From NCBI RefSeq assembly GCF_002775205.1, contig NC_036454.1, positions 1,340,382 to 1,404,381 on the forward strand: a stretch of 64,000 bases of DNA. Direction: 5' to 3'. The notes beneath the pieces were generated by a model. It ran no database searches, was not told the origin of the DNA, and saw only the letters and a program-made list of their open reading frames with translations. Position numbers and translations under genes: made by a program. Positions within the stretch are counted from its first letter, which is position 1, and each line of letters opens with the position of its first letter. This DNA comes from Xiphophorus maculatus. Its lineage: Eukaryota; Chordata; Actinopteri; Cyprinodontiformes; Poeciliidae. This document shows positions 1-47,400 of the stretch, one piece after another.

Positions 1-74
1 AAAAGCGATCAAACTTCTGGTGGGCCGGAAGACCTTCAGATGCTGACAACACACACTCTGTCTGTGTGTTTCAG

Positions 75-3000
75 GATGACAGCTGCTGCAAGCGACTCTC
101 TTCTTCCTCTGCAGACTCTGCAGCCAACACCTCACCAAGTGGTAACCACTACACACACACACACACACTTCCTGCCCACAGCACGGGGTGTGAATGACAT
201 CACATCCTCTCAGCTGACACTTCCTGTATTTGGTGACTGCTGCCCCCTGCTGGCAGTGACTGCAGCAGGAAGGTAAACAAGAACTAGAACCGAGCTGCTG
301 CATTGGATCGGGCTGTGTTAATTAGGTTAGGTTCTTAGGTTATTTGCAGCAAACAGGATGGTGTATCGGTCAGGATACAGGAAGGAGGACATGAGATCAA
401 ACTTGACTTAGATGCGAACTGGTTTATTCGTCGTGATGCTCAGTGTTGCCAGTAGTCTGTAATAACAAATAAATTGCCATTAGGCTAATGTATTACAGGA
501 ATAGAGGTTCCACTAATACAAACTCAAACAAAATATCTAATAAGAATTAAACTCAACCATCCACATTTGCATGTAAATCCACAACATACACAAATAACTC
601 AATTCACGTAAAGGTTACATCATTAGGCGCAATTTCGGTGGAAAAAGACACGAGCACAGACAGCCCTTTGGCTCGATTTAACATAAGAGGCACTTTGGCG
701 CCATCATGTGGCCAGATAAAATCCCTACACAACGGCGGCAGCTGGCAGCGCATGCCTTTAATTACTATATCTGCCGCAATAACTCAATTGAAAGCAATAA
801 CAGTTGCTGGCCGAAATGCAATTACAAATAATAAGATTTAAGGTAAACCTATGAATGCTGAGCAGGCTCAACTGAGTTCCCAGCGCTCAGAACGCCCCAC
901 AACATCGCATACCTGTTCTCCCGTAGTTTAAACATATATATTTAAACATATAACAAACTGAATCTAGCGTAAATAAACAGCACGCTAAATGCGGTAACTT
1001 ACTTTCCGTCATCAACTTAACACTCGGAGCATCACTTCTCAAGACTACAACATGAATGCGGTCTCACATGCTGAGAACGCAGCAAACTGACCCGGAAGTA
1101 TATTAAATTGCTCCCATGAGCAGGGCACAGCACTAAACTCCGACTTACGTCACTTCCTAGGATACTCTCTAAACCAACATTACAAAATAAAATACAGAAA
1201 TGTCAGCGCCTTTTATACAGGCTGGCTGCAACTTGGACCAAGAACCTGGTTCTGGACCAGCCTAGTTCTGTCCTGCAGTCCTCCAGAGACCGACTGGACT
1301 CAGAACCGCCTCAGGGTCTCTTGGTTCTGGTCATGGTGTAGAAACTGTCCGACAGGCTCGACCCAGTTCTGATTCTGTCTTGTTCTCAGAGGATGACCCA
1401 GATTACGACTTCCTCCACACCGACCTGTCGTCCTCGGAGACGCTGCCCCCTGCCCTGCCGGAGAAGAGACGCCGCAGCACCACAGGTGAGGACACACCTG
1501 TCCCTCTGTCTCTCTCTGGACTCTGAGCTGCTGCTGGATTCAGAGAAGCATTTGACACAGTAGACTGTGTCATCCTCTTAGCTCAGTTAGCTCATTTAGC
1601 TTGGCTATCTCTGTTACCTTGGTTAGCTCTGTTAGCTTGGTTTGCTCAGTTAGTTTGGCTAGCTCTGTTAGCTTGGTTTGCTCAGTTAGTTTGGCTAGCT
1701 CTGTTAGCTTGGTTTGCTCATTTAGCTTGGCTAGCTCTGTTACCTCGGTTAGCTCATTTAGCTTGGCTAGCTCTGTTAGCTTGGTTAGCTCATTTAGCTT
1801 GGCTAGCTCTGTTAGCTTGGTTTGCTCAGTTAGTTTGGCTAGCTCTGTTAGCTTGGTTTGCTCAGTTAGTTTGGCTAGCTCTGTTAGCTCAGTTAGCTCA
1901 TTTAGCTTGGCTAGCTCTGTTATCTCGGTTAGCTCATTTAGCTTGGCTAGCTCTGTTAGCTTGGTTTGCTCAGTTAGTTTGGCTAGCTCTGTTAGCTTGG
2001 TTTGCTCAGTTAGTTTGGCTAGCTCTGTTAGCTTGGTTTGCTCATTTAGCTTGGCTAGCTCTGTTACCTCGGTTAGCTCATTTAGCTTGGCTAGCTCTGT
2101 TAGCTTGGTTAGCTCATTTAGCTTGGCTAGCTCTGTTAGCTTGGTTTGCTCAGTTAGTTTGGCTAGCTCTGTTAGCTCAGTTAGCTCATTTAGCTTGGCT
2201 AGCTCTGTTACCTCGGTTAGCTCATTTAGCTTGGCTAGCTCTGTTAGCTTGGTTAGCTCATTTAGCTTGGCTAGCTCTGTTAGCTTGGTTTGCTCATTTA
2301 GCTTGGCTAGCTTTGTTAGCTTGGTTTGCTCAGTTAGTTTGGCTAGCTCTGTTAGCTCAGTTAGCTCATTTAGCTTGGCTAGCTCTGTTACCTTGGTTAG
2401 CTCATTTAGCTTGGCTAGCTCTGTTAGCTTGGTTTGCTCAGTTAGTTTGGCTAGCTCTGTTAGCTTGGTTTGCTCAGTTAGTTTGGCTAGCTCTGTTAGC
2501 TTGGTTTGCTCATTTAGCTTGGCTAGCTCTGTTAGCTTGGTTAGATCATTTAGCTTAGCTAGCTCAGTTAGCTTATTGTAGAAATAATAAAAATGGCTCT
2601 ACAGTCTTAGGCTATTTATGTCAAGTCAAATCATGCACTCAAACTTTCTTCATTTTAGCGAAAATAAAAGTTTTGGACTTTTTTATTAGGACAGAATCAT
2701 TTTTATGCTAGTACTGAAACAGTTGTTGTTAGCCTCCCTCTATTTCACCAGTCAGCTGTAAAAACGTTGCTGTTGGCTCTGACAGCCTTTAAATACACGA
2801 GTTGTTTGAGTTTTTGTATTTAGCTAAGGTTCTGCTTCTGTTCTGTAGGGCTTTATTTGAGGATTTGCTGTTTAATTTCAACTCTTAAACGGTTTCTAGG
2901 TGCTTCTTAAGGTCATTTTTACTCACTGAAGTCTGTGATTCATTGTAATGTTGGAACTTATTTATTTATTTTTTTTAGAAATAGTTTATTTATGGACGTG

Positions 3001-6000
3001 TGTTAAGCACTTTGGTGCAACTTCAGCTTCTAAGTGTCTATAAAGAAATGGGACATTTCCTGTCCCTCTGTCTGTCCTGTCTTCTCCCTGTAGGCGTCAG
3101 CGGCTCTCAGAAGGCGGGCACCTTTGGATTTAACTCCACCCATGTGGACACAAGCCCCGCCCCCAGTGATGATGTCACCGACCCTGAAGCCCCCATGTCC
3201 TCCCCCCTGTCCCCCTGTAAGACGCCCCCCCCCCTCCCTGAGAAGAAGCGACACAGTGAGTAAAATCAGAGCAGCTGATTGGTGGAAGTTTGAAAATCCT
3301 TTAAATCAATCAGACTTTATCTGTAAAGCATAAAATGAAAACAATTGAAACATTTCGCTGAGAGCCGTCGTTAAATTATGTTTCCATAGCAACTCCAACC
3401 AGCTGGTTTAGCCTGAAAGGAGCTCAGGGTTTCAGATGTTTTTCAGTTTTCTGGAAGTTTGTTCCAGATCTGTGGAGCATAGAAGCTGAATGCTGCTTCT
3501 TCATGTTTCGTTCTGGTTCTGATGCAGAACAAAACCACAACCAGAACCAGCAGGTTGATTCAGCAGCAGTGATTTATAAACTACCAATGAAGAACCGGGT
3601 GGTGTAGAACCAGATGGTGTCTCTATCCTCCTGGTTCTAGTCAGAACTCCAGCAGCAGCGTTCTGGACCGTTGGGTTGTCAATCAGACCTGTGAAGACGC
3701 TGCTGCAGGAATCAAAGCCTGGATGAGTTTCTCTGATCTGAGTCTTTAGTCTCTGGTTCTGGAAATGTTCTGGAGCTGGGAGAAGACCCACTTTTATAAT
3801 CGGCTTTATGTGGCTCTGGAGACTCAGGGCAGAGGTCAGAGGTCAGTCTGATCTCTGGAATCCAGGTGGAAGAACTGAAGTTGACTCCAGATCTGTACTT
3901 CTAGATCTATTACTGTATATCCATAAATCTGGGTCTATAACTCTACATCATTCATCTTTAAGTCCAAACATAATGACTGTAGTTTTGACATGCCTGTCCT
4001 CCACCTGTCCTCCACCTGTCCTCAGTCCATCAGTACCTGCAGTTCTGCTCCACGTCCTGCACCGACCCGTCTGCGGTTTCCTTCTACCAGAAATTTAAAG
4101 TCCGACAGCGAGATCAAGACTCCGCCCACCAGCTGGATCACCTGACCACAGGCTCCGCCCCCTCTGGAGGTCCATTTCCTGCCCCTGCTTTACCACCAAA
4201 GAAGAAACAGCAGGTGAGGAAGAAGCAGAACTCCAGGGTTCTGTTTGGGTTCTGTGTGCCAGGTCAGGCCAGAACCTCTTGGTTCTGATGAGAACATCAG
4301 CGGACCAGAACCTGAGCCTGAGGATGACCTTAGCCCTTCATTCAGGGTCAGAGGTCAGAGCAAGCTTTCTGTAAGCAGAACCTCTGCAGAACCGGGCCTA
4401 AGTTCATAGAAACTGTCTGTCTGTAACTGTTAGCATTAGCATGCTAACCTCTCAGCTCGGATGTTTGTCATATTTCCCATCAGGCTCTGGCATTTCAAGA
4501 TGGCTGCCGTTTCTGAGCCAGTCATTGCCATGAAATGTTCCCCATTTTCATGAACTTTCTGTCCCATCAGAAGTTTTCAGCTTCGCTCACGTTCATAAAC
4601 GTTAAAGTAACAAAATGCAGCAGAACCAGAACCTGCCAGAATCTGACAACGTTGCTGTTAGCGGGCCTCAGACCAGTCGTCAACAAAAATGAGATCAGAC
4701 GTAGCGACAGTCATCATATTTTCTAGCATTAGCTTCTGCTCTTCAGTTTAGCAATAATATTCTTGTTTAGTGAATTAGCGGGAAGAGAAGCTAACCTTTT
4801 GGTTAGCTGTGCTCACCACCGCTGCTGATTTTGGTGCAAACACATATTCTGGCGGCCATTTTGAAAAGTGTCCAACAGAGAAAGGAAACACAAGATCTAG
4901 ACCAGGGCTGCCAAACTCCAGGCCTCCAGTCGCTGTCCTGCAGGTTTTAGATGAGCCACAGCTAGAAAACACTGGAATGAAACGGCTTCATCACCTCCTG
5001 TGGATCACCAGAACCTTGATGGCCTCATTATTCTGTCCAGGTGAAGCAGCAGAGGCTCATCTAAACGTTACAGGACTGGAGTTTGACACCTGTGATCTAG
5101 ACCAGTGGTCCCCCCCAGACCCCCCCGGTCCCCAGTAAATATGCGGAGAGTCTCGACCGCGGCACTAAAAAGGTTGGGGACCACTGATCTAGGCAATATA
5201 AATGATTTGTATGGTTCAACATATGCACCCATAATTGGACGCTGGCAAATGGACTGTGCGGCCATCTTGAACAATGTCTGCCACAGGTCATAATGAGTGC
5301 AGGTGAGAGATTTTACTGAAATGTTCAATTATCTGCTGCTTTGTCATCAGAGTTTCTCCAGGTGTAATTTCATTCCTGTGATTTTTTTCATCTCCAGGAC
5401 ACGCAGTCTGAGAACGAGGACAGGTGAGGCACACACACCTGTACACACATCTGTCCTTTAGACACACACACCTGTGCAGACTCTCAGCCTCACTGCTCTG
5501 CAGCTCTGTGGACCACCAGCAGGGGTCAGAGTTCAGCCAGAGAAGCGGAGAGGAAGATGAAGAAGACGAGCTCCTACTGGCTGACCCGAACGAGATCCGT
5601 CACAGAATCACTCTGAAGTCTGAGGTTTGGCCCCGCCCACTCTACTGTGGTCACAAGTCTCACCTGTGCTCTAACCCCGCCCCTCTGACCTCAGGAGGAG
5701 GAGGGGCCAGAGGTGAAGGCTGCGTCTCCTGAGATCCTATTGGTCCAAGCCACACAGCCCGGCAGCAGCGGTACGTCTGCCAGCCAATCACACGAGGCCA
5801 CCTGCCTCTGTGGGGCGAGGGGGGGTCCCCTGGTCAGGCTGACCCGACCAGCAGCAGAGGACAGCTGAGGTTCTGTTAGACAGAACCGGACCGGACCTGA
5901 TGGTGTCCTGTTTGGGTTTTTACAGAACAGAACCAGTACCAGGAGGCCTTCCTCTGCACCTACCGCGGCTTCGCCACACCCAGTGATGTCATCAGCAAGC

Positions 6001-7818
6001 TGCAGCGCAGATATCCTTAAACACCCGAGGGACGCCTCGGTCCTTCTGGCCGGGTCAGAACCACGGTCCGGATCAGTCATGTCCTTAACCAGCAACACGT
6101 ACAGAACCCTGAGGGAAGGCGGCGCCGGTGACCCGACGGCCGCCGGGAACTCTATCCAGCTGCTGGTCAGGGTGGTGGCCGGGCTCAGGTGAGACCGCCG
6201 GGCCCAACCGGACCTCTGGTTCTGGTGGGGAACCGGACCTCTGGTTCTGATCGCTCGGCTCTCTCTTTCTGCAGTTCTGTGGAGCTGGAATCTGATTTGC
6301 TGCTGATGCTGTTTGACCTGGTGTTCTGCCTTCTGATTGGTGGAGAGCTGGGGATGGCCCGCCTCCTGCACGCCAACATCCTGTCCAAGATGGAGGAGAG
6401 GTGGAAGCTGATTGGCTCCCCTCAGTCGCTCCGCCCCCTCGCGGCCAAAGGCGTAGCCGCCAGGTAGCCCCGCCCACCCGACTGCACTAGACTGCCCACG
6501 CTGCGTTCTGATTGGCCGCTGTCTCACCTGTGTGTCTCACCTGGCAGACCAGGAACTCTGCTGGACTTCAGGAGTCAGGACCTGGCTGAACAGCTCACCC
6601 TGCTGGACTCGGACCTGTTCTGCAAGATCCAGGTGCTCACCCGTCTGTCTCACCCGTCTGTCTCACCCGTCTGTCTCACCCGTCTGTCTCACCTGTCTGT
6701 CTCACCTGTCCAGCTCCCAGAGGTGTTGCTTTGGTCCAAGGAGCAGAACGAGGAGAGAAGTCCTCACCTGACAGAGTTCACTCAGCACTTCAACAACGTT
6801 TCCTTCTGGTGAGGAAAACCCAGGTTCAGGTTCTGGTTCTGGTCCAGGTTCTGGTTCTGGTTCTGGTTCTGGTCCAGGTTCTGGTCCTGGTTCTGTTGGG
6901 TCAGTCCAGCTGATCTCTGCTGTGTGTGACCTCTGACCTCCAGGGTGCGCTCTGTGGTCATCCTGCAGGACAAAGCTCAGGACAGAGAGAAACACCTGCT
7001 GAAGTTCCTGAAGGTGATGAAGGTAAGTGGTGAGGATGAGGACGGTGTCCCCGTGTTGTCCAGCTGGTGGACGTGTCCCTCCTGTGTCTCCGCAGCACCT
7101 GAGGAAACTCAACAACTTCAACTCCTACCTGTCCATCCTGTCCGCCCTGGACTCCGCCCCCCTGAGGCGGCTGGACTGGCAGCGGAGCACAGCAGAGGTA
7201 CCTGTCCCACCTGTCCTCACTGTCCCACCTGTCCTCACTGTCCCACCTGTCCCCTCACTGTCCCCTGTGTCTTCCAGAGCTTGGAGGACGTGTCCTCGCT
7301 CATCGACAGCTCGTCGTCCTTCAGGGCGTACCGCGCGGCGCTGGCGGAGGCGGAGCCTCCCTGCATCCCTTACCTGTAGGTTCACTTGCCGAGGGCTGGC
7401 CTAGGCGTTGCCATGACAACGCCTCTAACACCTGTCCCTGTCTGACCCGCTCCACCTGCAGGGGGCTGATCCTGCAGGACCTGACCTTCGTCCACCTGGG
7501 GAACCCCGACACCTTGACAACGTCACAGGGGTCACAGGTCAACTTCTCCAAGTGCTGGCAGCAGTTCAACATCCTGGACACTCTGAGGAGCTTCCAGAGG
7601 GAGTGAGTGCATCCAACCGCCATCCAACATGCATCCAACCGCCATCCATCAGCGTATCAGTGTGTGGTCTGTGTCCCTGCAGGCGGTACTCTCTGGCGCG
7701 GGATGATGACATCATGTCGTTCTTTAATGACTTCAGCGATCACCTGGCAGAGGAAGCTCTGTGGGAACTCTCTCTGAGGATCCGCCCACGGAACGCTCCA
7801 CGAGCCAATCAGAGATGA
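75..7818 (+). CDS. rapgef1: Rap guanine nucleotide exchange factor 1 (C3G), 3' part, 17 exons
   Basis: C3G activates Rap1/R-Ras downstream of Crk adaptors. Exons in phase: 75-141, 1390-1485, 3094-3255, 4026-4213, 5398-5423, 5504-5624, 5695-5770, 5926-6010, 6099-6188, 6275-6463, 6548-6632, 6714-6808, 6944-7022, 7096-7197, 7278-7375, 7462-7602, 7683-7818, giving 611 residues to TGA 7816-7818. The N-terminal part holds Crk-SH3-type proline motifs (PPALPEKRRR, PPPLPEKKRH, PALPPKKKQQ). An acidic linker and the RasGEF N-terminal module follow (ITLKSE, EAFLCTYRGF, LLVRVVAGL). The catalytic RasGEF domain shows GTLLDF, AEQLTLLDSDLF, KLNNFNSYLSILSALDSAP, PCIPYLGLILQDLTF and FNDFSDHLAEEALWELSL, ending like C3G. 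The 5' exons lie outside the window. Exon 75-141 rests on phase only. The 6010/6099 junction needs an AT-AC intron. Recognition is from remembered family sequence. Confidence 0.93.
142..1389 (+). other. Intron with unassigned AT-rich sequence
   Basis: Lies between two in-phase rapgef1 exons. Holds a short CA run near 151-167, then roughly 360-1190 of AT-rich sequence unlike the flanks (poor in AGAACC). This could be an old insertion, but I saw no coding motif, terminal repeat or target duplication. Confidence 0.4.
1565..2578 (+). repeat. 9-bp minisatellite (AGCTTGGTT family) in rapgef1 intron
   Basis: About 1 kb of 9-bp units such as AGCTCTGTT, AGCTTGGTT, TGCTCAGTT and AGTTTGGCT, arranged in recurring 36-bp or longer blocks. 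Because 9 is a multiple of three, a 326-codon open frame of Ser/Leu/Val/Ala runs through it. The frame has no domain and is an artefact of the period. Confidence 0.95.
3340..3990 (-). mobile_element. L2/Maui-like LINE fragment, 3' part
   Basis: Read on the minus strand, broken frames resemble the 3' part of L2/Maui reverse transcriptase proteins (SVFTGLIDNP, VQNAAAGVLTRTRRIE, LVVYKSLLLNQ). The stretch near 3806 (TGTGGCTCTGGAGACTC) recurs in the L2 copies at 30.7 kb (same strand) and 51.5 kb (opposite strand). It sits in a rapgef1 intron and is heavily decayed. Confidence 0.7.
4903..5094. mobile_element. hAT-type MITE copy A with 8-bp target duplication
   Basis: Starts CAGGGCTGCCAAACTCCA and ends GGAGTTTGACACCTGTG, imperfect inverted repeats. 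It is flanked by ATCTAGAC at 4895-4902 and 5095-5102, the 8-bp duplication typical of hAT transposons. Related copies lie at 28.7, 30.9 and 61.1 kb. No coding capacity. Confidence 0.88.
5103..5186. mobile_element. Second short hAT-type MITE abutting copy A
   Basis: 84 bp running from CAGTGGTCCC to GGGGACCACTG. It is flanked by ATCTAGAC (5095-5102) and ATCTAGGC (5187-5194), so it shares its left target with copy A. The interior differs from copy A and includes GGCACTAAAAAGGTTG. It resembles the vertebrate CAGTGGTCCCCAACC class. Confidence 0.8.
6011..6098 (+). other. Probable U12-type AT-AC intron in rapgef1
   Basis: The exon ending AGCGCAG is followed directly by ATATCCTT, the minor-spliceosome 5' splice site. 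TCCTTAAC at 6082-6089 matches the U12 branch site, and the intron closes in AC at 6098, about 10 nt past the branch A. No GT donor is available here, and reading through meets TAA at once inside the splice site. Joining 6010 to 6099 gives arginine then tyrosine in phase, continuing the RasGEF N-module (QRRYRTL), and every later exon stays in phase. The intron is 88 nt. Confidence 0.85.
6640..6712 (+). repeat. 13-bp tandem repeat (CTGTCTCACCCGT) in a short intron
   Basis: About five units of TGTCTCACCCGTC or variants fill the 81-bp rapgef1 intron at 6633-6713, up to its CAG acceptor, and may supply its pyrimidine tract. Confidence 0.8.
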
Positions 7819-9119
7819 GCTGCGGAGGAGCAGCAGCCAACTGGAGTCTGCTGGATACCGCTGGGCTTTGTGGACCTGGTTCTGACCCAGACTGGACCGG
7901 TGCCGGCAGAACCATGTCAGGAGGGGGCGTGGCCCCTTCCGCATCAGAACGTGTTCTCCACTGGTTCCACCTGGAACCACCTGGTTCTGCTCCAGAGTCC
8001 AGTCAGACGAAACCACTTCTCTTATCATCAGCCTGCTGACCTCTGACCTCTGGGCCCGACTGCACCGATGGTTGATCAGCTATTGATCAGTTAGACGATC
8101 AGAGCCAAACGGCAGCTCTGCTAAATCTCAGGTATTAGTTCCTTCAGAGACGATTTTTATTGTTTCAACTCAACCATCAGCGACCCGGTACCGACCCGGT
8201 ACCAGGGGGTTCTGTTTCAGAAACTCCTCAAAGCCAGGCCGATACCGGGTCAGCCCAGAACCTGATAACCTGCTTCCTGAAGCCATCGGTCTGGTCTGGC
8301 TGGACTTCATCAGAACCAGAACGATGGTGACAGATCGATCAGGAGCTGCAGCTCAAGATGGAGGACAGAGATTTACTGAGACACACACACACACCTGGAG
8401 ACACACACACACCTGGAGACACACACACACCTGGAGACACACACACACCTGGAGACACACACACACCTGGAGACACACACACACACACACACACACCTGG
8501 AGACACACACACACCTGGAGACACACACACACCTGGAGACACACACCTGGAGACATACACACACACACATGGAGACACACACCTGGAGACACACACCTGG
8601 AGACATACACACACACACATGGAGACACACACACACCTGGAGACACACACCTGGAGACACACACCTGGAGACATACACACACACACCTGGAGACACACAC
8701 ACACATGGAGACACACACACACATGGAGACACACACCTGGAGACATACACACACACACCTGGAGACATACACACACACACCTGGAGACACACACACACAC
8801 CTGGAGACACACACCTGGAGACATACACACACACACATGGAGACACACACACACCTGGAGACATACACACACACACACCTGGAGACACACACACACATGG
8901 AGACACACACACACATGGAGACACACACACACATGGAGACACACACCTGGAGACACACACACACACACGGAGCGACACATGTGTGTGTGCGTGTGTGGGC
9001 GTGTCTCCAGGTGTGTGAGTCACACACCTGGCCGATGACACACTAAAGGACAGCTGGACGGACGTTCACTAGTGATTTTTCTGAATAAATGATTTGAGCT
9101 GCAGAAGAAGTTCAATAAA
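7819..9119 (+). other. rapgef1 3' UTR with two polyA signals
   Basis: Non-coding sequence after the rapgef1 stop. AATAAA occurs at 9084-9089 and 9114-9119 and would end a UTR of about 1.3 kb. That UTR would contain the whole ACACACCTGGAG array at 8378-8972. The UTR end is inferred from the polyA signals only. Confidence 0.5.
8378..8972 (+). repeat. CA-rich minisatellite (ACACACCTGGAG) downstream of rapgef1 stop
   Basis: About 600 bp of ACACACACCTGGAG, with CATGGAG and ACATACAC variants; unit lengths vary from about 12 to 24 bp. Open frames in all frames and both strands (HTWRHTHT, VCVSPGVC) are by-products. It is probably inside the rapgef1 3' UTR. Confidence 0.95.
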
Positions 9120-10679: not shown

Positions 10680-11515
10680 GATACGTTCTGACTGCGTGTC
10701 CTGGTGGACAAACTGGGGGACCTGGGCCTCCCTCACTCCACCTGCATGTGGATCCTGAGCTTCCTGACCAACCGACAGCAGAGAGTTAGGGTGGGAAAAC
10801 ATACATCCACTGCCCTCAGCCTTAGTACTGGCTCTCCACAGGGCTGTGTGCTGAGCCCCCTGCTCTATTGTCTGTACACATACGACTGCACCTCTGCCCA
10901 CCACAGCAACACCATCATCAAGTTTGCTGATGACACCACAGTGGTGGGGCTCATCTCAGGAGGCGACGAGTCCGCCTACAGGGGAGAGGTGGAGCGGCTG
11001 TTGCAGTGGTGCAGGGAGAACAATCTGCTCCTCAACAACTCAAAGACAAAAGAACTCATAATAGATTACAGGAGGAATGAAACGGACATTACACCACTAA
11101 CCATTGGGGGAAAATGTGTGGAGAGGGTAGCTGATTTCCGTTTCCTGGGGGTCCACATTGAGCAGGGCCTCACATGGAACATGAACACCTTGGAGCTGAT
11201 AAAAAAGGCCCAGCAAAGACTGAACTTCCTGAGGGTTCTCAGGAGGAACAGCATCAAGGAGAAGCTGCTGGTGTCCTTCTGGTGTCCTTGTACTTGAGTG
11301 GAGGGCCGGGACACAGTCGCCCCAGAGGAGAACGAAGTTGATGTTTCTGGGCAGTTGGGCATGGTGGACAGGACCTGAGGAGATGTTGGGGCCAGTGGTG
11401 GCTGGGCTGACAAAGACGTCGGTCAGAAAGAAATGTCTGTAGACTTTGGACAGTGACTGCTCCAGCACTCCATCCGCCTGAACTGGACACCTTTCCTAAA
11501 TAAAACCTAATCATG
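10680..11515 (+). mobile_element. Rex1/Babar-like LINE fragment (reverse transcriptase)
   Basis: An open frame from 10704 to about 11297 encodes reverse transcriptase motifs: SPQGCVLSPLLYCLYTYDC, IIKFADDTTVVGLISGGDE with the catalytic FADD box, NNLLLNNSKTKELIIDYRR, FRFLGVHIEQGLTW and KKAQQRLNFLRVLRR. The pattern fits the CR1-related Rex1 clade. The endonuclease and the first RT motifs are missing (5' truncated). After 11297 the frame is lost but related 3' sequence continues to about 11510. Confidence 0.85.
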
Positions 11516-13399: not shown

Positions 13400-13536
13400 T
13401 GCTGAGGTTGAGTAGGTTACCTAGACATGGCCAAGACATTTCAAATTATAGTGGAAGATATTACTCTGGATTTACCATACCACATAAAATTATTTTTGTG
13501 TACAAAACAATCATACCTGTGTCAATATTAGGGCCA

Positions 13537-14716
13537 GAGGTCAATATTAGGGGCAGAGGTCAATATTAGGGGCAGAGGTCAATATTAGGGCCAGAGGTCA
13601 ATATTAGGGGCAGAGGTCAATATTAGGAGCAGAGGTCAATATTAGGGCCAGAGGTCAATATTAGGGGGAGAGGTCAATATTAGGGGGAGAGGTCAATATT
13701 AGGGGCAGACGTCAATATTAGGGCCAGAGGTCAATATTAGGGGCAGAGGTCAATATTAGGGGCAGAGGTCAATATTAGGGGCAGACGTCAATATTAGGGC
13801 CAGAGGTCAATATTAGGGGGAGAGGTCAATATTAGGGCCAGAGGTCAATATTAGGGGCAGACGTCAATATTAGGGCCAGAGGTCAATATTAGGGGGAGAG
13901 GTCAATATTAGGGCCAGAGGTCAATATTAGGGGGAGAGGTCAATATTAGGGCCAGAGGTCAATATTAGGGCCAGAGGTCAATATTAGGGGCAGACGTCAA
14001 TATTAGGGGCACAGGTCAATATTAGGGGCAGAGGTCAATATTAGGGGCAGAGGTCAATATTAGGGCCAGAGGTCAATATTACGGACAGAGGTCAATATTA
14101 GGGGCAGACGTCAATATTAGGGGCAGAGGTCAATATTAGGGCCAGAGGTCAATATTAGGGGGAGAGGTCAATATTAGGGGCAGAGGTCAATATTAGGGGC
14201 AGACGTCAATATTAGGGGCAGAGGTCAATATTAGGGCCAGAGGTCAATATTAGGGGGAGAGGTCAATATTAGGGCCAGAGGTCAATATTAGGGCCAGAGG
14301 TCAATATTAGGGGCAGAGGTCAATATTAGGGGCAGAGGTCAATATTAGGGCCAGAGGTCAATATTACGGACAGAGGTCAATATTAGGGCCAGAGGTCAAT
14401 ATTAGGGGGAGAGGTCAATATTAGGGCCAGAGGTCAATATTACGGACAGAGGTCAATATTAGGGCCAGAGGTCAATATTAGGGCCAGAGGTCAATATTAC
14501 GGACAGAGGTCAATATTAGGGCCAGAGGTCAATATTAGGGCCAGAGGTCAATATTAGGGGCAGAGGTCAATATTAGGGCCAGAGGTCAATATTACGGACA
14601 GAGGTCAATATTAGGGCCAGAGGTCAATATTAGGGCCAGAGGTCAATATTAGGGGCAGAGGTCAATATTAGGGGCAGAGGTCAATATTAGGGGCAGAGGT
14701 CAATATTAGGGGCAGA
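13537..14716 (+). repeat. 19-bp minisatellite with TTAGGG in nearly every unit
   Basis: Roughly 60 units of GTCAATATTAGGGGCAGAG with point variants (GGGCCAGAG, GGGGGAGAG, ACGGACAGAG, GACGTC). The period is a constant 19 bp. Most units contain TTAGGG. No open frame. Confidence 0.95.
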
Positions 14717-17307: not shown

Positions 17308-19660
17308 ATGCAAAACTCACAAAGTCAACAAAAGGTATTTTTACCTTCTTACATTTTTTCACATAGTAAATCAATACGCTTTTCTAGATTAGGTTGAAAA
17401 TACAATTAACAGCTGTAAACTAGTGAAATTCGTAATTCATACAGGGGAAGGCTAATTTTAGCATGTAGCATAGCTAGTTATTATCCCGCAGGGCACCATT
17501 AGATAAAAATAGAAAAGTAGATCCATCCATCCATCCATCCATCTTCTTCCGCTTATCCGAGGTCGGGTCGCGGGGGTAGCAGCTTCAGAAGGGAGGCCCA
17601 GACTTTCCTCTCCCCAGCCACTTCTTCTAGCTCTTCCGGGGGAATCCCGAGGCGTTCCCAGGCCAGCCGAGAGACATAGTCCCTCCAGCGTGTCCTGGGT
17701 CTTCCCCGGGGCCTCCTCCCGGTGGGACGTGCCCGGAACACCTCACCAGGGAGGCGTCCAGGAGGCATCCTGACCAGATGCCAGAGCCACCTCAACTGGC
17801 TCCTCTCGATGTGAAGGAGCAGCGGCTCTACTCTGAGTCCCTCCTGGATGACTGAGCTTCTCACCCTATCTCTAAGGGAGAGCCCAGCCACCCTACGGAG
17901 AAAACCCATTTCGACCGCTTGTATCTGCGATCTCGTTCTTTCGGTCATGACCCAAAGCTCATGACCATAGATGAGGGTGGGAACGTAGATCGACCGGTAA
18001 ATCGAGAGCTTCTCTTTTTGGCTCAGCTCTCTCTTCACCACGACGGACCGGTACAACGCCCGCTTGACAGCAGACGCTGCACCAATCCGCCTGTCGATCT
18101 CCCGCTCCCTTCTTCCCCCATTCGTGAACAAGATCCCGAGATACTTGAACTCCTCCACTTGGGGCAGGACACCCCCCCTGACCCGGAGAAGGCACTCTAC
18201 CCTTTTCCGGCTCAAGACCATGGCCTCGGATTTGGAGGCACTGATCCCCATCCCGGCCGCTTCACACTCGGCTGCGAACCGCTCCAGCGAGAGCTGCAGA
18301 TCACGATCTGATGAAGCCAAAAGGACCACATCGTCTGCGAAAAGCAGAGATGAGATCCTAAGGCCACCAAATCGGATCCCCTCAACACCTTGGCTGCGCC
18401 TAGAAATTCTGTCCATGAAAGTGATGAACAGAATCGGTGACAAAGGGCAGCCCTGGCGGAGTCCAACTCTCATCGGAAACGAGCCCGACTTACTGCCGGC
18501 AATGTGGACCAGACTCTGACACCGGTCATACAGAGACCTGACAGCCCGTATCAAAGGGCCCGGTACCCCATACTCCCGGAGAACCCCCCACAGGGCTCCC
18601 CGAGGGACACGGTCGAACGCCTTCTCCAAGTCCACAAAACACATGTAGACTGGTTGGGCGAACTCCCATGCACCCTCCAGGACCCTGCCGAGGGTGTAGA
18701 GTGGTGTTATACATGTAGATAACATGTATAATTGAGAAATGTGTTTTATGCTCAAACTTTATTTTTTATTTTCATTATACAGATCCACGTATCTATTTGC
18801 AACATGAACATAAATATTTCTGTCCCTTTGCTCATACAAGCTACAGATCCATTTAGCACAAACTGCTATGGTTCAACATAACGGTATGTATAACTACACT
18901 TGAAAAATATAAAATATTTTTTACATACTTATCAGTTTTCTACTGTTTCTCTTTTATTTTTAAAGGTTAATCTTTTTTAAATATGTTGTGTACACCAATG
19001 TTAAATTTCTGGAAAGTCTAATATATTTTATAAACTAACAGCAGCCATTATAGTTGGGTGTAGTACCCAGATGTGATAATATAATGACGAGTAGCACAAC
19101 TTCAGTATAGTTTTAGTAAGTAACTGCAATAAACTACACTAGTAAGAGTAACAAAGTATTTGGTGAAATGGCTATTATTAACTACCGTTTTACTGATCAT
19201 AATGTGCAATGTGATTTTTTATTTTGTTTTTTTCAGATGCCTCTGAATGTTCTTGAAGCTGTTCTCCAGGAGGTGGCGCTAGCACAGGGAGACTCAGCCT
19301 ACCTCACCTTGGCATCGACCTGCAGGTGCTTTGAAGCCGTTGAGTCTGAGCCAGTTTTCAGGAAGAAGACTCACTTTGCTTGGCTGGATGGTAAGGACCT
19401 TTGACTTTTTTTACCTAAAACATGTGAAATTAGATTTCAACTACATGAAATTGATTTTTCATTAACAGGTGAGATCAACTGGGGAAAATTTTCAGAAACA
19501 TTCAAGGCAGAAAACCGGATTCCTTTTGCGGTTGTAACGTGTTCCTCCTGCCACCGGTAATATAAAGACTGTGGGCTTCACCGGCGATGGAAGACGAGGA
19601 GAGTACCCTGGTAACTACTGTGATGGCCAACCTGGACACTGCACTGGCTGTCAATACTGA
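17308..19660 (+). pseudogene. F-box-like/Cys-rich gene carried in the TIR unit, late frame break
   Basis: Exons: 17308-17334 (MQNSQSQQK, donor GTATTT), 19237-19390 (MPLNVLEAVLQEVALAQGDS, LASTCRCFEAVESEPVFRK) and 19469 onward (NWGKFSETFKAENRIPF, VVTCSSCHR). Phases agree. The second exon resembles an F-box-like helix (PLNVLEAVL..YLTLASTCRCF). In the third exon the frame meets TAA at 19558. A +1 shift reopens a frame encoding GFTGDGRRGEYPGNYCDGQ and GHCTGCQY, stop 19658-19660, suggesting a Cys-rich tail broken by one indel. The first intron contains Rex3. I do not know the family's function. Confidence 0.55.
17521..18716 (-). mobile_element. Rex3 (RTE-clade) LINE, 5'-truncated
   Basis: A minus-strand open frame (18755-17553) encodes RT with FVDLEKAFDRVPRGALWGVL, GLRQGCPLSPILFITFMDRI and the FADD box in LLFADDVVLLASSDRD, then LSIYRSIYVPTLIYGHELWV and GRPRTRWRDYVSRLAWERLG. 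The + strand near 18436 reads CGGTGACAAAGGGCAGCCCT, which I recall as the conserved site used to amplify teleost Rex3. The 3' end is a GGATGGATGG tail at 17521. There is no endonuclease. A short possible duplication, GTAGAT, flanks it. The intact frame suggests a young insertion. Confidence 0.9.
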
Positions 19661-22608: not shown

Positions 22609-30329
<7,721 letters not shown>

Positions 30330-30614: not shown

Positions 30615-33060
30615 TAATCAATCAATCAAATGTTATTTGTATAGCACATTTCAGCAGCAAGACATTTCAAAGAGCTTTACATCATAACAAACTGACTTTG
30701 TAACTGTCTTTATGTGGCTCTGGAGGTTCAGGTCAGAGTCCATCACTACTCCCAGGTTTCGGGCTGATCGCTGGTTTTTAGTTGTAATAACTGAAGCTGT
30801 GCATTGACTCTAGATCTATAGCTCTAGATCTATGACTATATATCTTTAACTCTAGATCTATGACTCTATATTTATAACTCTAGATCTATGACTCTAGATC
30901 ACAGGTCTCAAACTCCAGGCCTCGAGGGCCGCTGTCCTGCAGTTTTTAGATGTGCCACAAGTACAAACCACTGGAATGAAATGACTTAATGACCTCCTCC
31001 TTGTGTAGATCAGTTCTCCAGAGCCTTAATGACCTAATTATTCTGTTCAGGTGGTGCAGCAGAGGCTCATCTAAAAGTTGCAGGACAGCGGCCCTTGAGG
31101 ACTGGAGTTCGACACCCCTGCGATAGATGTTCCTCTTTAGGTCCAACAATAATAACTTCAGTTTTGTTTCTGTTCAGCTGGAGAAAGTTTTGGCACATCC
31201 ACACATTTATCTGTTCTAAGCATCTGTTCAGTGATTGGATGGGGTCAAAGGTCACCTGGTGACATCGTAATGTAGAGCTGTGTGTCATCTGCATAGTTAT
31301 GGTAGCTAATATTATTTCCTGTTATAACCTGAGCTAGTGGGAGCATATAAATATTGAATAAGAGGGGTCCTAGGATTGAACCTTGGGGTACCCCACATGT
31401 GACCTTTGACCTCTTTGATGAGAAGAGGTCAAACTCTCCAGTCGATTCAGTAATATGTCATGGTCAACACTGAGGTCCAACAGAACCAGCACTGTGGTTC
31501 TGCCACAGTCCGTATTTATATGGATGTCATTGAACACTTTGACTAGGCCAGTCTCTGTGCTGTGGTAACCATGGAAACCAGACTGGAAGGAGTCAAAGCG
31601 GTTGGTTATAGTTAGGAAGCTAGTTAATTGTTTACACAGCTTTTTCAATAACTTTGCTGATGAATGGGAGGTCAGAGGTCAGAGGTCGGCCTGTAATTCT
31701 GCAGTAGTGATTTGTCCAGATTGTTCTTTTTTATCAGTGGTTTGATTACTGCTGTTTTCAAAGCCTGGGGGAAAACGCCTGATGAGAGCGATGAGTTACT
31801 ATCTGGATCAGATCAGCAGCAATAACAGGCAGGACTTTCTTAAAGAAATGTTCTAGAGTTATAGATCTAGGACATCCAGACAGCAGGAACTGGAGCTTAT
31901 TGACTTATAATTTCCTGTAGGGTTTTATAATTAAGTAGTTGAAATTGGGTCATTTTTCCTGTATTTGTTTTGTTTGGGTTCAGCATTGGTTCTGACTTTA
32001 TAGTGGATGTTCAGATTAATAATCCTATTTTATTAATTTTCTCTGAGAAGAAGCTGGAAAACTGGTTGCAGGCGGCAAAACATTGGAAATCAGGCGGTAA
32101 CGTCACAGGAGGGTTTGTGATTCTGTCAACTGTTGCAAATAAAGCTGGAGCATTGTTAATGTTTTTGTTTATGACATCTGCAAAGAAAGTCTCTCTTGCA
32201 TGTTTTAGTGTTAAATGATAGTTACGTAGACTTTCCTTATAGATGTCACAATGAACGTGAAGTTGAGTTTTACGCCATTTTCGTTCTGCCCTACGGCAGA
32301 GTTGTCTTGCAGATCTACTGTAACTGTTTGTGTATTTCTCCATGGAGATTTCTTTTTACCAGACACAACCTTCATTTTAATGGAATCAATAATATCTGAG
32401 ACTTTAGACTGAAAATCTTTTACCAACTTATCTACATCATTACAGCTTAAGGGTGAGGAAGAAGAGTAGATTTGATTAAAAGTTTCTGCTGTGTTTTCAG
32501 TGAGAGAACGTTTTGTGATGGTTGCTGTTTGTCCAAGTGGGTTAAAAGATAAAGAACTTTCAAAGATAACAGGAAGTGATGCGACAGGCGACATCAGTTA
32601 CAGAGACATTGGAAATATTCACAGCCTTACTGATAACCAGGTCCAGTGTGTGTCCTTGAGTGTGTGTTGCTTGTTTGACATGTTGTGTTAAACCAAAAGT
32701 CTCTAAAATATTAGCGAGCTTTTTTGCCCCTCTGTCTTGGGGGTTGTCAACATGAATGTTGAAATCACAGACAATTATTAAACAATCATAATCAATAGAT
32801 ATAAGAGATAGAAGTTCATTCAAGTCAGTAAAGAAATTTTCCACAAAAGTTGGAGTTTTGTATAGAGTTACAGTCAAAGTTCGTTTGTGGCCTTTAACCT
32901 CAATTCCAAGATACTCAAAGAGGTGAAGTGACCCAAAGAGATTTTACTACAGTTTATGGTATTCTTAAATATTGAAGCCACGCCTCCTCCTTTTTTATGT
33001 TTTCTATTCTCACTGAAGAAATTGTAGTTAGGAGGCGCAGATTCAATTAGTACGATCGAT
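30561..33060 (-). mobile_element. Decayed L2/Maui-like LINE, (CAAT)n-tailed
   Basis: The minus strand reads endonuclease remnants (CDFNIHVDNPQDRGAKKLAN, FGLTQHVKQATH, GHTLDLVISKAVNIS), then RT remnants (DSFQSGFHGYHSTETGLVKV, INTDCGRTTVLVLLDLS) and the 3' RT part ([31 protein letters not shown]). Many stops and deletions separate these. The + strand CAATCAAT run at 30567-30626 is its 3' tail (TGAT)n. MITE copy D sits inside. L2 clade by motif memory. Confidence 0.82.
30899..31123. mobile_element. hAT-type MITE copy D inside the L2 LINE
   Basis: ACAGGTCTCAAACTCCAGGC to GACTGGAGTTCGACACCCCTG, the same family as copies A and C. It interrupts the LINE 3' coding region, so it is younger than the LINE. 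Confidence 0.8.
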
Positions 33061-37411: not shown

Positions 37412-40400
37412 CTTCACTGCTGGTCAAAGAAACTCCAAATCCTATTCTTAAAGAATTTGTTAGTAACACAAATGAACAGACGTCTGCAGAGCGCTACACA
37501 GTGGAGTCAATCAGTTCACCTGGCACAAATCTAATGGTTATAGTAGATCAGGTATTGATTATTGGCTGGTATCTGCTGCAGTCCTAGAGTGTATTAAAGA
37601 AACAGAGATAGCAAACTGTCCTTTAAGTGATCACTGCATTATCAATTTAAAACTACAAAAACTGGATAAAAGTTCTAAACCCAATAATTACTGGAAATTG
37701 AATTCAAACCTTCTTATAAACTTAGAGTTTTGTCAATTTATTAAGGAACTTATTCTAAATATATCAAGTGACAATTCTATTGAAACACCAATTATTAAAT
37801 GGGAATACTTGAAATATAGTATTAGAAAATATTCAATTAAATTTGGTCAAGAGTTACATAGAAAAATAAAAGCAGAAGAGACAATGGTGATTAAAGATCT
37901 TATGTCACTTTACAGAAAATTAAGTTGGACTGATGAGGATAAAGAAATAATAAATAAATTGCAATCTAAATTAGATGAGATTTACATAAATAGGGCAAAA
38001 GGTGCTTAAGGTCCAGAGCCAGAAAAAAATAGTGCTTTTTTTTGTAACTTAGAAAAACATAGACAGGAATATAATTATTAATAGTCTTATAATTGATGAA
38101 GTGGAATGTTCTGAGAATAAGAGAATAACTGAAGAAGTATTTAAGTTTTATAGTAATCTTTATAAATCTTCACATACAGAACAAATTACTTCATCCTTTT
38201 TTGATAAAATAAATAATCTAGTTCCTGTTATTGATGAAAACTTCACAGAAGTCTGTGATGAAGAGCCAAGAATCTCTGAATTTGACATTTCTATAAGAAA
38301 TATGGCTTCTGACCGCCAGACGGCCTCACAGCTAATCTTTAGAAACATTTCTGGGAGGATTTAAAACTTTTGTTGTTTCAGGCTGTAGAAGAATGTGTTA
38401 GTAGGAAGGAACTCATGGAAACTATAAAACAAGGTGTAATTAAACTAATCCCAAAACCTGGTAAAGATAAGAAAAATGTAAATAATTTAAGGCCTATCAC
38501 GCTGTTGATCACTGACTACAAGATCTTAACTAAAGTTTTGGCAATGAGGTTAAAAACTGGTTTACCTAAAATAATTAGTCAAACCCAATCCGGCTTTCTG
38601 AAAGGCAGATCCATCATAACAACATGCGCCTGGTTCTGGACCTTATTGATTATAGTCATTAATAAAAGATGATGGTTTTATGTTGTTTTTAGATTTACAC
38701 AAAGCATTTGATTCTGTGGAACATCAATTTATTGTTAACACATTGAGACATTTTGGTTTTGGAAATAGTTTTCTTAATATGATTACCATGTTAAACACCA
38801 ATATTAACACTTATATATATATATATATATTAATATTAAGCTGTGTGTCTTTGTCACATGCCCCAGATTCAAAGTAGAAAGGAGAATCAGACCAGGCTGC
38901 AGTATCTCGCCTCTCTTATTTATTTTAGTCACAGAACTTCCAGCAATAACAATTAAAAACTCTAATATTGAAGGTCTGGAAATAAATAACCAGAAAATAA
39001 TCATTAGCCAATTGGCAGATGATACAACCCTCTTCCTAAAAAACGAAGAACAAATTCCTCCAGCTCTACAGGAAATAAAGTTGTTCTCTCAGCCTCAGGG
39101 CTGCAGATAAATGTAAATAAATGTGAAATTATGAGTATCCATAATTGTTCTGATTCTTCAATTTCCAATATTCCAGTTAAAAATGAAGTTAAATACTTAG
39201 GCATGTGGATTACTAAGTGTAGAGCTACCAGTGTTAGAAAAGATTTACTAGACAACATTGATAAATGTGGCAAGACCTTAAATATTTGGCTTCAAAGAGA
39301 CTTGATGTTGTTTGGTAGAACTTTATTAACAAAAACTGAATCCTTATACAGGCTGACGTTTCCTGCATATTCCTTAGCCGTCCCTCCAAATATCATAAAA
39401 CAGATTAAATTTTAATTTTATTTTGAAAAACAAGCACCATTACATCAGAAAAAGTGATTTGCTAAAACATTTGAGGAAGGTGGTATCAAGGCAATCGATT
39501 TTTAAATTATGAATGGTACTTTAAAAATTAGATGGCTTCAGTCCTTTTTAAAAAACGATGATTTTATTTGGTTTGTTAAACCGTCGTTCGTATTTCAAAA
39601 AGTTGGAGCTATTGAGCTGTTATTGAAATGTGATTTTGAATTATCTAAACTTCCTACAACTCTCTAATTTCCACCAACAGGTTTTGTTACAGAGGAAGTT
39701 TATGTTTAAATAACTTCAGCCTCATAATGTTCCACTGTGGAACAACAGAGCCATTCTATGTGTAGAAGATCTATGTTTCTAGAAGATTGGTGGAATAAAC
39801 AAATCTGGTCAATTACTCATTTACTGGATGGAAATGGTGATATTCTAAGTTTGGAGGAATTTAACAGGAAATATGGAGCTGATTGTTCACTAACAATTTA
39901 TTAAAAAGTTTTATATAGTTTCACTAATGTCCTCATTCAGTCAGTTAAAATCTATTTACCTAATTTCTTTATTCCAAGACTCCATAAGATTCAAATTGAG
40001 CTTGTGGACATTAGAGATAATAAATGCAATAACAGGTTTTTGAATCAGTATCTATAAATATTATGTACCCAGGAAGAACAAAAAGCACAGTTCTCTTACA
40101 AAATGTTAACAAATCTATGATAGTCAAAATTAGGACAAATTATTTGAAATTCCCAATTCCTCCTAAATATAAAGAATTACATTTTAAAATAATAAATAAC
40201 ATTTATCCTTCAAATGAGTTCTGAAGAGAGAGATTTAAGTTTAATGTTGAGAATTGTGGTTTTTGTAAAACTCAGTTGGAAACAACTAAACATTTGTTTT
40301 ATGAATGTAAAGAAATATTAAACTTTTGGGATCAACTTCGAAACTTTCTGTCTTCTAAAACAATAAATGTGGATTTTATTTCCTTACAAAACATTAAATT

Positions 40401-44425: not shown

Positions 44426-47400
44426 AAACACACAGAAGGAAACGGACCAATGGGACGCTGCGTTGTTTCTGTCCAGGGCCCTCCAGCCAATCAGGAGGTG
44501 AAGCTGAAGGCTCAGAGGATGATGGGATGTCCAGAAGACAAGAAGCTGAAATTGAAAAGATGTAAGTTCTGTTGTGACCCGGTTCATCAGCTGGTTCTGT
44601 TCTGACCCAGTTCTCTGTGTTCAGGGGAGAGCTGGCAGAAGACGCTGCTGGTCCACTCAGTGACTAGAGACCACCTGAAGAGACTGATGCTGCCCAAACT
44701 GTCCAGGTACCAGAACCCGACCTGCTGCTGGGGGGGACGCGTCCTGACGTGTCTCTATGTGTTTCTACGTGTCCCTACGTGTCTCTATGTGTCCCTACGT
44801 GTTTCTACGTGTCCCTACGTGTTTCTACGTGTCTCTACGTGTTTCTACGTGTCCCTACGTGTCTCTACGTGTCTCTTGTCCCTCCAGGCTGGACTTCCTG
44901 ACCTCCAAGTTTTCCTCGGCTCAGGGAGCCGACAGACAGCAGCTGACTGAGCAGATCAATGACCTGGAGAAAGACCTGCAGCTGCTGAGGTCAGACGGGT
45001 TCTGGACCGGGTTCTGGACTGGGTCGGGTTGACAGCCTGATGGATCTGGCTCTGTGTTCTGATTGGTTAGGATGAAGAGAGAGGAGGAGCTTACTGGTGA
45101 TCGCTACGAAGAACACGACTGGCAGAAGATCTCCAACATCGACGTCAGTAAATAACCTGATGGATCGACTGATCTATTGATCTATTGATCGATTGATCGA
45201 TTGATCAGCCCTGCTCCTCTTCCTCAGTTTGAAGGGACGAAGGACGCAGAGGACATCCGTCTGTTCTGGCAGAACGTCCTCCACCCGTCCATCAACAAGA
45301 CGGCCTGGAGCAGCGAGGAGGTCCAGAGACTGAGCGCCACCTGCAGGAGACACGAGGACAGACACTGGGACTCGATCGCCCAGGAGCTGGGGGTGAGGGA
45401 GGGAACGGGGCGGATGGCGTCTGTCTCTGACCCGTCTCTCTGACCCGTCTGTCTGTCTGTCCTCAGACGGGCAGGACGGCCTTCATGTGTCTCCAGATGT
45501 TCCAGCGTTTCGTCTCCGACTCTCTGAAACGCAGCAGCTGGACGGCGGAGGAAGACGAGCAGCTGAGAGAGCTGGTCCAGAAGATGAGGATCGGGAACTT
45601 CATCCCGTACACGCAGAGTAATGACATCACTGTGACATCACGCTGTGACATCACGCCCCGTCTCTGATGGACTCTTCTTCTCTGCTTCCAGTCAGTTACT
45701 TCATGGAGGGTCGTGATCCGACTCAACTCGTCTACAGGTGGAACCAGGTTCTGGACCCGAGCCTGAAGAGAGGCTCGTGGACCGAGCAGGAGGACCGGGT
45801 ACGCCTCCCACCCAGATGGACCCACCCTGGTCCCGGAGCGCTCGGTCCGGTCTCAGACTGATCTGTCCGTCCGCCTGTCTGTCCGTCCAGCTCCTGCTGC
45901 AGGCTGTGGCTCGTCACGGTGAGAAGTGTTGGTGGAAGGTCCGGTTGGAAGTTCCTGGACGCACCGATGGAGCCTGCAGAGACAGGTGAGGACCAGCAGG
46001 AGGCAGCGTTCTGGGTTTGCCTCAGTGAGCCCAGTCCGTCCGTCTGTCCGTCTGTCCGTAGGTATCTGGACTGTCTGAAGAAGAACATAAAGAAAGGTCC
46101 GTTTGAGAGACATGAGGTGGAGCTGCTGGAGCAACTGGTGAAGAAACATGGAGTTGGTGAGGTTCTGATGATGATGATGATGATGATGATGAATCACCTG
46201 CTGTTTGGTTCTGAACTGACCGTCTGTGTTTCAGGTCGCTGGGCCAAGATCGCCGCAGAGATCCCTCATCGCCTCGATGCTCAGTGTCTGAGAGAGTGGA
46301 GGAAGCTGGTGCGAGAACCTGCTCAGGTAAATCAGGGGTCACTCAGGGGTCACTCAGGGGTCAGGAGGCTGTCAGGAGTGCAGGTTCATTAGCTGCTGTG
46401 TTTAGGAACTGATGGGAAATCAGAGTTTCTGAAAGCAGAAGGCTGATCGTCTGTTTCTCTCACAGGACAGAAGGAAAATCAGGAAGACCTGCAAGAAGGG
46501 AGGAAGAGGAGGAAGAGGAAGAGGGCGGGGTGCTGGAGGTTTCAATGTTAGCATCAGGAGAGGAATATTGAAGATGAAGGAGGAAGAGGAGGTGCAGGTA
46601 ACTGAGGAGGAGGATGAGGATGAGGTGGTGCAGTACATGGACAGTGATGAAGACTGTAATAAAAAGAGGAAGAGGAGCATGGAGGAGGAGGAAGAGGAGG
46701 AGGAGTACATCCTGCCGCCGATGGAGGAGTGGCTTCCAGCTGAGGTGAAGCAAAGCTCCACCTCCCTGAGCTTCACGCTGGTGGAACTCCCTTCCTCCGG
46801 CGAGGCTCCGGACCGAACCGCGGTCCGCTCCACCGTGCTGGGTCGGCCCCGGCCCTCCGTCGTCATCGGGGCTCCGCCCAGAGAGCTGTCCTGGGAGGAG
46901 CGCCGCAGCTCCTCCGCCGTGCCGATGGTGTCCCGGGAGGCACTGCGTCTCCACCTGAGCGCCCTGAAGCAGAAGGTCGGCTCCGCCCCCCAGCCAGGGC
47001 GGCGGCCGCGCCCGCAGGCCCAGGAGCTGAGGTACGAGCTGCAGGTCGCCGTCACGCCGTGGATCGGGAACCTGCTGATCCCAAAGAGCCAGAAACGGAG
47101 CGCCGCAGATGCGCTGAGGGAGGCAGGAGAGAGGAGCGGCATCTCCACCTCCTCCGCCTTCACGCTGCTCCTCCAGGCCATGAACGTAGACACGCTGGGC
47201 TGCCGGCAGATGATCGAGGAGAGGAAGAGCAAGGCGGACCTGCAGGCCCCGCCCCACGCCCGGGGGCCCAAACGGGTCTCAGAGCTCCTCGCCAACAGGA
47301 AGAGGAGGAGCCAAGAGGAGGAGGAGGACCAGTGGCGAGTCCTGCTGCAGGAGAAACGCATCCTGCAGGCTCCGCCCATCCTGCAGGCTCCGCCCATCCT

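Follow-up and report, generated by a model that had tools for sequence, protein, structure and literature searches.

The window analysed here, a stretch of 64,000 nucleotides from Xiphophorus maculatus, begins with a rapgef1-like gene on the + strand (75-7818) whose 5' part lies beyond it. We placed 17 exons by hand; once these are joined and positions 6011-6098 are removed, a single frame of 611 codons runs without a stop to the TGA at 7816-7818, as expected from an earlier claim that all 17 exons are in phase. The model has 16 introns, 15 of them with GT-AG termini and one, 6011-6098, with AT-AC termini. Exon 5 is a microexon of 26 nt (5398-5423) whose GT donor is good and whose acceptor is CAG, and intron 2 harbors a long minisatellite (1588-2574, 36 bp x 27) in which about 340 codons are open in three of the six frames.

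Comparison of the predicted product with Pfam revealed a RasGEF_N domain (39.9 bits, residues 226-278 of 611 aa) and, C-terminal to it, a RasGEF (CDC25) domain (178.6 bits, residues 378-552). Exons 2-4, upstream of the catalytic part, encode the proline-rich basic motifs LPPALPEKRRR, TPPPLPEKKRH and PALPPKKKQQ, read by eye, which are similar to the motifs by which C3G binds Crk; that protein carries several SH3-binding motifs, proline-rich and basic, ahead of its catalytic part. The solved relatives of the product amount to 28 distinct PDB sequences at E 0.001, including SOS1, SOS2, Rap GEF 4 and RasGRP1, 2 and 4, and a RAPGEF1 chain is absent among these 28. Further downstream, the open frames 22726-23064 and 25313-25669 matched protein O-mannosyltransferases (PMT) with 32.2 and 31.3 bits, together with a weak PDB match, and are compatible with POMT1, a neighbour of RAPGEF1 in human 9q34, where UCK1 lies nearby as well. 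The name rapgef1 (C3G) is thus well supported by the two domains and the proline-rich motifs, and the POMT1-like gene downstream fits it. By eye, this POMT1-like gene may extend over 22609-30329 on the + strand, from what may be its ATG (22609) to what may be its stop codon (30327-30329).

Exon 8 (5926-6010, + strand) encodes the first half of RasGEF_N, is in frame, scores highest by codons in the frame that the model gives it and ends in phase 2 at position 6010 with ...CTGCAGCGCAG, also given as ...AAGCTGCAGCGCAG. Directly adjoining this end is the putative U12-type 5' splice site ATATCCTT (6011-6018), an 8/8 match and the sole RTATCCTT of the window on both strands; an in-frame TAA (6018-6020) overlaps it and would be read if the intron were retained. 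The candidate branch point TCCTTAAC (6082-6089) is likewise an 8/8 match, the only exact one on the plus strand of the window, with A 6087 or A 6088 as the candidate branch nucleotide, and the predicted 3' splice site is the terminal AC at 6097-6098. The 88-nt segment so delimited, whose first and last bases are ATATCCTTAA and TGTCCTTAACCAGCAACAC, is followed by exon 9 (6099-6188), which starts with GTACAGAACC and leads into a GT-AG intron with the donor GTGAGA. Counted from A 6087, the last base of the intron is 11 nt and the first of the exon 12 nt away; counted from A 6088, these distances are 10 and 11 nt. The spacing is thus at or adjoining the optimum branch-to-acceptor spacing of 11-13 nt given in an excerpt of PMC3584512. 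A preliminary description of this DNA had proposed an AT-AC U12-type intron at this place in the RasGEF N-terminal module of rapgef1, with the donor immediately after the exon, the branch point 10 nt before a terminal AC and a TAA arising inside the 5' splice site; our analysis bears out each of these points, RasGEF_N spanning the junction and the frame being kept.

The consensus of U12-type AT-AC introns, as stated in a passage of PMC2831892, comprises the donor ATATCCTT, the branch point TCCTTAAC and an AC end; correspondingly, 6011-6098 combines the donor RTATCCTT, the branch point TCCTTRAC and AT...AC termini, one of the two kinds of ends (AT-AC or GT-AG) that U12-type introns have. Like such introns, it has no distinct polypyrimidine tract: at 0.58, the pyrimidine fraction ahead of its acceptor is the smallest among the 16 model introns, the other 15 ranging from 0.63 to 0.84. 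When those 15, all GT-AG, were searched for the same signals, the best donor match to RTATCCTT was 5/8 and the best correctly placed branch match was 6/8.

Taken singly, neither motif is enriched in the window, RTATCCTT occurring once in 64 kb (3.66 expected) and TCCTTRAC three times (5.06 expected); what is unusual is their pairing and their position at an exon boundary. When the whole window was shuffled 300 times with its dinucleotides preserved, a perfect donor with a perfect branch point and an AC at the right distance, making an intron of 50-300 nt, turned up in one shuffle, both strands included, and among 200,000 random 88-mers drawn from a first-order model of positions 1-8300 the 8/8 donor appeared in two, the branch point with AC in five and both together in none; these two tests take account neither of the exon next to the donor nor of a length by which the frame is restored. 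A second exact U12-type donor of either subtype was not found in the window. With one mismatch allowed per motif, we obtained 87 pairs of a donor and an acceptor no more than 3 kb apart (both strands, both subtypes), some of which share the present donor or branch point; taken together rather than singly, they were treated as chance. Neither a known RNA family (at the gathering threshold) nor a tRNA was found in this DNA.

Codon scores provided modest support for the predicted splice. Read in the frame that the splice imposes, exon 9 reaches 0.18 bits per codon, whereas its two other frames give -0.71 and -0.45; the predicted frame is the best one in 16 of the 17 exons, the exception being exon 1. 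The three frames of 6011-6098 itself score -0.55, -0.50 and -0.12; the support is modest because the last of these frames is free of stops and lies near the score of the poorest model exon (-0.02).

The preliminary description had also held that the frame is lost with every GT-AG alternative, and this has to be corrected. The region 5926-6188 admits 60 frame-keeping, stop-free splices including the proposed one, namely 11 GT-AG, 34 GC-AG and 15 AT-AC, so that there are 45 options by which the major spliceosome could remove an intron here, with the U12-like motifs as a coincidence. We regard such a GT-AG or GC-AG intron as very improbable. The donors of the 11 GT-AG options score -2.05 at best, against -0.53 to 8.44 for the GT donors of the 15 other introns, by a simple frequency table in which the second base of the intron is not counted. 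One GC-AG donor, at 5995, scores 0.0 on this table and so falls between the lowest and the highest of those GT donors, but the splice that it would start (5995-6058) retains only 27.0 bits of RasGEF_N; conversely, the GC-AG splice best by domain (6005-6092) retains 37.1 bits but has a donor score of -5.71. Moreover, a coincidence would have to produce the exact donor and the exact branch point together, which happened in the single shuffle mentioned above without an exon boundary even being required.

We then compared the RasGEF_N scores of the proposed splice and of 18 hand-chosen alternatives out of 59 (5 of 11 GT-AG, 8 of 34 GC-AG and 5 of 14 other AT-AC). With 6010 joined to 6099 the domain scored 40.8 bits, the highest value among the full-length options scored. 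The five GT-AG alternatives gave 29.7, 23.7, 23.6 and 23.0 bits and, in one case, no match; besides the two already named, the GC-AG alternatives gave 33.0, 32.7, 32.6, 32.1, 31.7 and 31.6 bits. Closer values came from the other AT-AC combinations, with 38.5 (6013-6064), 35.9, 35.3, 33.7 (6011-6107) and 33.5 bits (6011-6089). The lead over the closest competitor, 6013-6064, which is without the extended U12 donor, is therefore 2.3 bits only, so that it is the splice signals that carry the argument. The truncated read-through peptide reached 40.6 bits and thus did as well as the spliced one. The match starts in exon 8 and stops 4-5 residues beyond the codon at the 6010/6099 junction, so its score says little on where exon 9 starts: it rules out the tested GT-AG choices and, alone, leaves the acceptor unfixed. 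Exons 9-10 alone matched no Pfam family, and for the module as a whole (148 residues) the PDB held no match at E 10. Exon skipping was considered as well and rejected: loss of exon 8, or of exons 8 and 9, breaks the frame according to the exon phases, whereas loss of exon 9 is in frame but would require that an AT donor be joined to an AG acceptor of the major type, and RasGEF_N then drops to 33.1 bits.

As to the acceptor, an intron of U12 type could use the present donor and end mainly at the AG of 6104, as AT-AG, or at the AC of 6107, making the protein shorter by two or three residues, respectively. Both sites are in phase and lie 16 nt and 19 nt beyond the second branch A; their RasGEF_N scores are lower (34.9 bits for 6104 and the 33.7 bits given above for 6107), AT-AG combinations are disfavoured and the spacing optimum is the one cited above, according to the portion of PMC3584512 that deals with them, and we give either site as the main acceptor a very slight chance. 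Least likely of all is that 6011-6098 is an exonic insertion, a sequencing or assembly error or part of a decayed gene copy: although a stop breaks the frame if the segment is not removed, both exact U12 signals are in place within it and the remaining model, with its 15 GT-AG introns, is open over 611 codons. The motifs, their spacing, the frame, the fit of the domain and the contrast with the other 15 introns, all of which this analysis demonstrates, point to 6011-6098 as an 88-nt U12-type AT-AC intron in phase 2, located in the RasGEF N-terminal (REM) module of rapgef1 (C3G), a reading to which we assign a probability of about 0.95.

In minor introns the donor is read by U11 and U6atac and the branch point by U12, after which the minor spliceosome excises the intron. 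The splicing of 6011-6098, and the machinery that would carry it out, are predicted on this model: U11 and then U6atac would recognise ATATCCTT, U12 would pair with TCCTTAAC leaving one branch A bulged out, and the minor spliceosome would join 6010 to 6099, restoring ...SKLQRRYRTLRE... in the transcript. Retention of the intron would let the TAA in the donor stop translation ahead of the RasGEF catalytic domain, and nonsense-mediated decay of the retained transcript is to be expected because this TAA has eight exon junctions downstream. In this regard, a section of PMC6717393 reports greater retention for shorter minor introns, with decay among its outcomes, and in an excerpt of the zebrafish zrsr2 paper the introns retained in the mutants appeared smaller. 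It is conceivable, though we think it improbable, that the intron works as a regulated switch of Rap1 signalling, with retention and decay when minor splicing is weak and with a choice among the acceptors 6098, 6104 and 6107 that varies two or three residues of RasGEF_N. If so, a very short intron with a stop codon built into its donor would regulate Rap1 signalling in this animal.

That rapgef1 should contain a U12-type intron of the AT-AC subtype is to be expected and not strange, since the Rap-GEF and RASGRP families are rich in minor introns, RAPGEF3 offers an AT-AC precedent and the AT-AC subtype makes up a share of 22-24% of such introns. According to a passage of PMC6865273 in which RAPGEF1 is not named, minor introns occur in 71% of the genes of the Rap-GEF family and in 100% of those of the RASGRP family; both are families of RasGEF-domain genes, and the present gene is of that kind. 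The preliminary description, which stressed how rare AT-AC introns are, overstated this point, minor introns being common in the Rap-GEF family as that same passage indicates. The AT-AC share of minor introns is about 22% in human and 24% in mouse, as reported in part of PMC6717393. The closest precedent is the AT-AC U12 intron of fly Epac, listed in an excerpt of PMC2831892 with a U12 partner in human RAPGEF3; it shares with the rapgef1 intron the Rap exchange-factor group and the AT-AC U12 subtype and is U12-type in both fly and human, whereas the gene is a paralogue of rapgef1. RAPGEF3 is named in a table of a paper on a Drosophila U12 mutant. In a different gene, the AT-AC U12-type intron of SMYD2 described in a section of PMC7367187 has the same ATATCCTT donor and AC end, while its branch point is TCCTTGAC instead of TCCTTAAC and its phase is 1 instead of 2.

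In open-licence papers (supplementary tables and U12 databases being outside this scope) we found no report of a U12 or minor intron in RAPGEF1, nor one that brings an AT-AC intron together with Ras guanine nucleotide factors. A term search in the main text of the zebrafish zrsr2 paper and of the rnpc3 paper gave no mention of rapgef genes. The intron is a clean but ordinary example at the sequence level, added to a Rap-GEF family already noted for minor introns; it leaves knowledge of minor splicing unchanged, and its use is mainly in annotation, where a gene finder restricted to GT-AG introns would damage the RasGEF_N module or insert a false frameshift. The 6010/6099 junction is a precise prediction and a cheap one.

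Elsewhere in the window, the open frame 45862-46389 contains a Myb-like DNA-binding domain (26.6 bits, cut-off 24.4) and may belong to a TTF1-like gene, a name that we take from human 9q34. Four segments seem to be remains of retroelements, probably of LINE type: 10692-11294 (+) and 17556-18758 (-), which match reverse transcriptase with 50.8 and 91.2 bits, respectively; 32563-32943 (-), with an endonuclease-reverse transcriptase match of 29.4 bits; and 39023-39412 (+), where a weak reverse transcriptase match (17.0 bits) is under the cut-off. Two more long minisatellites, in addition to that of intron 2, are located at 13521-14716 (19 bp x 63) and at 55042-57758, the latter extending over 2.7 kb with periods of 26, 39 and 65 bp.
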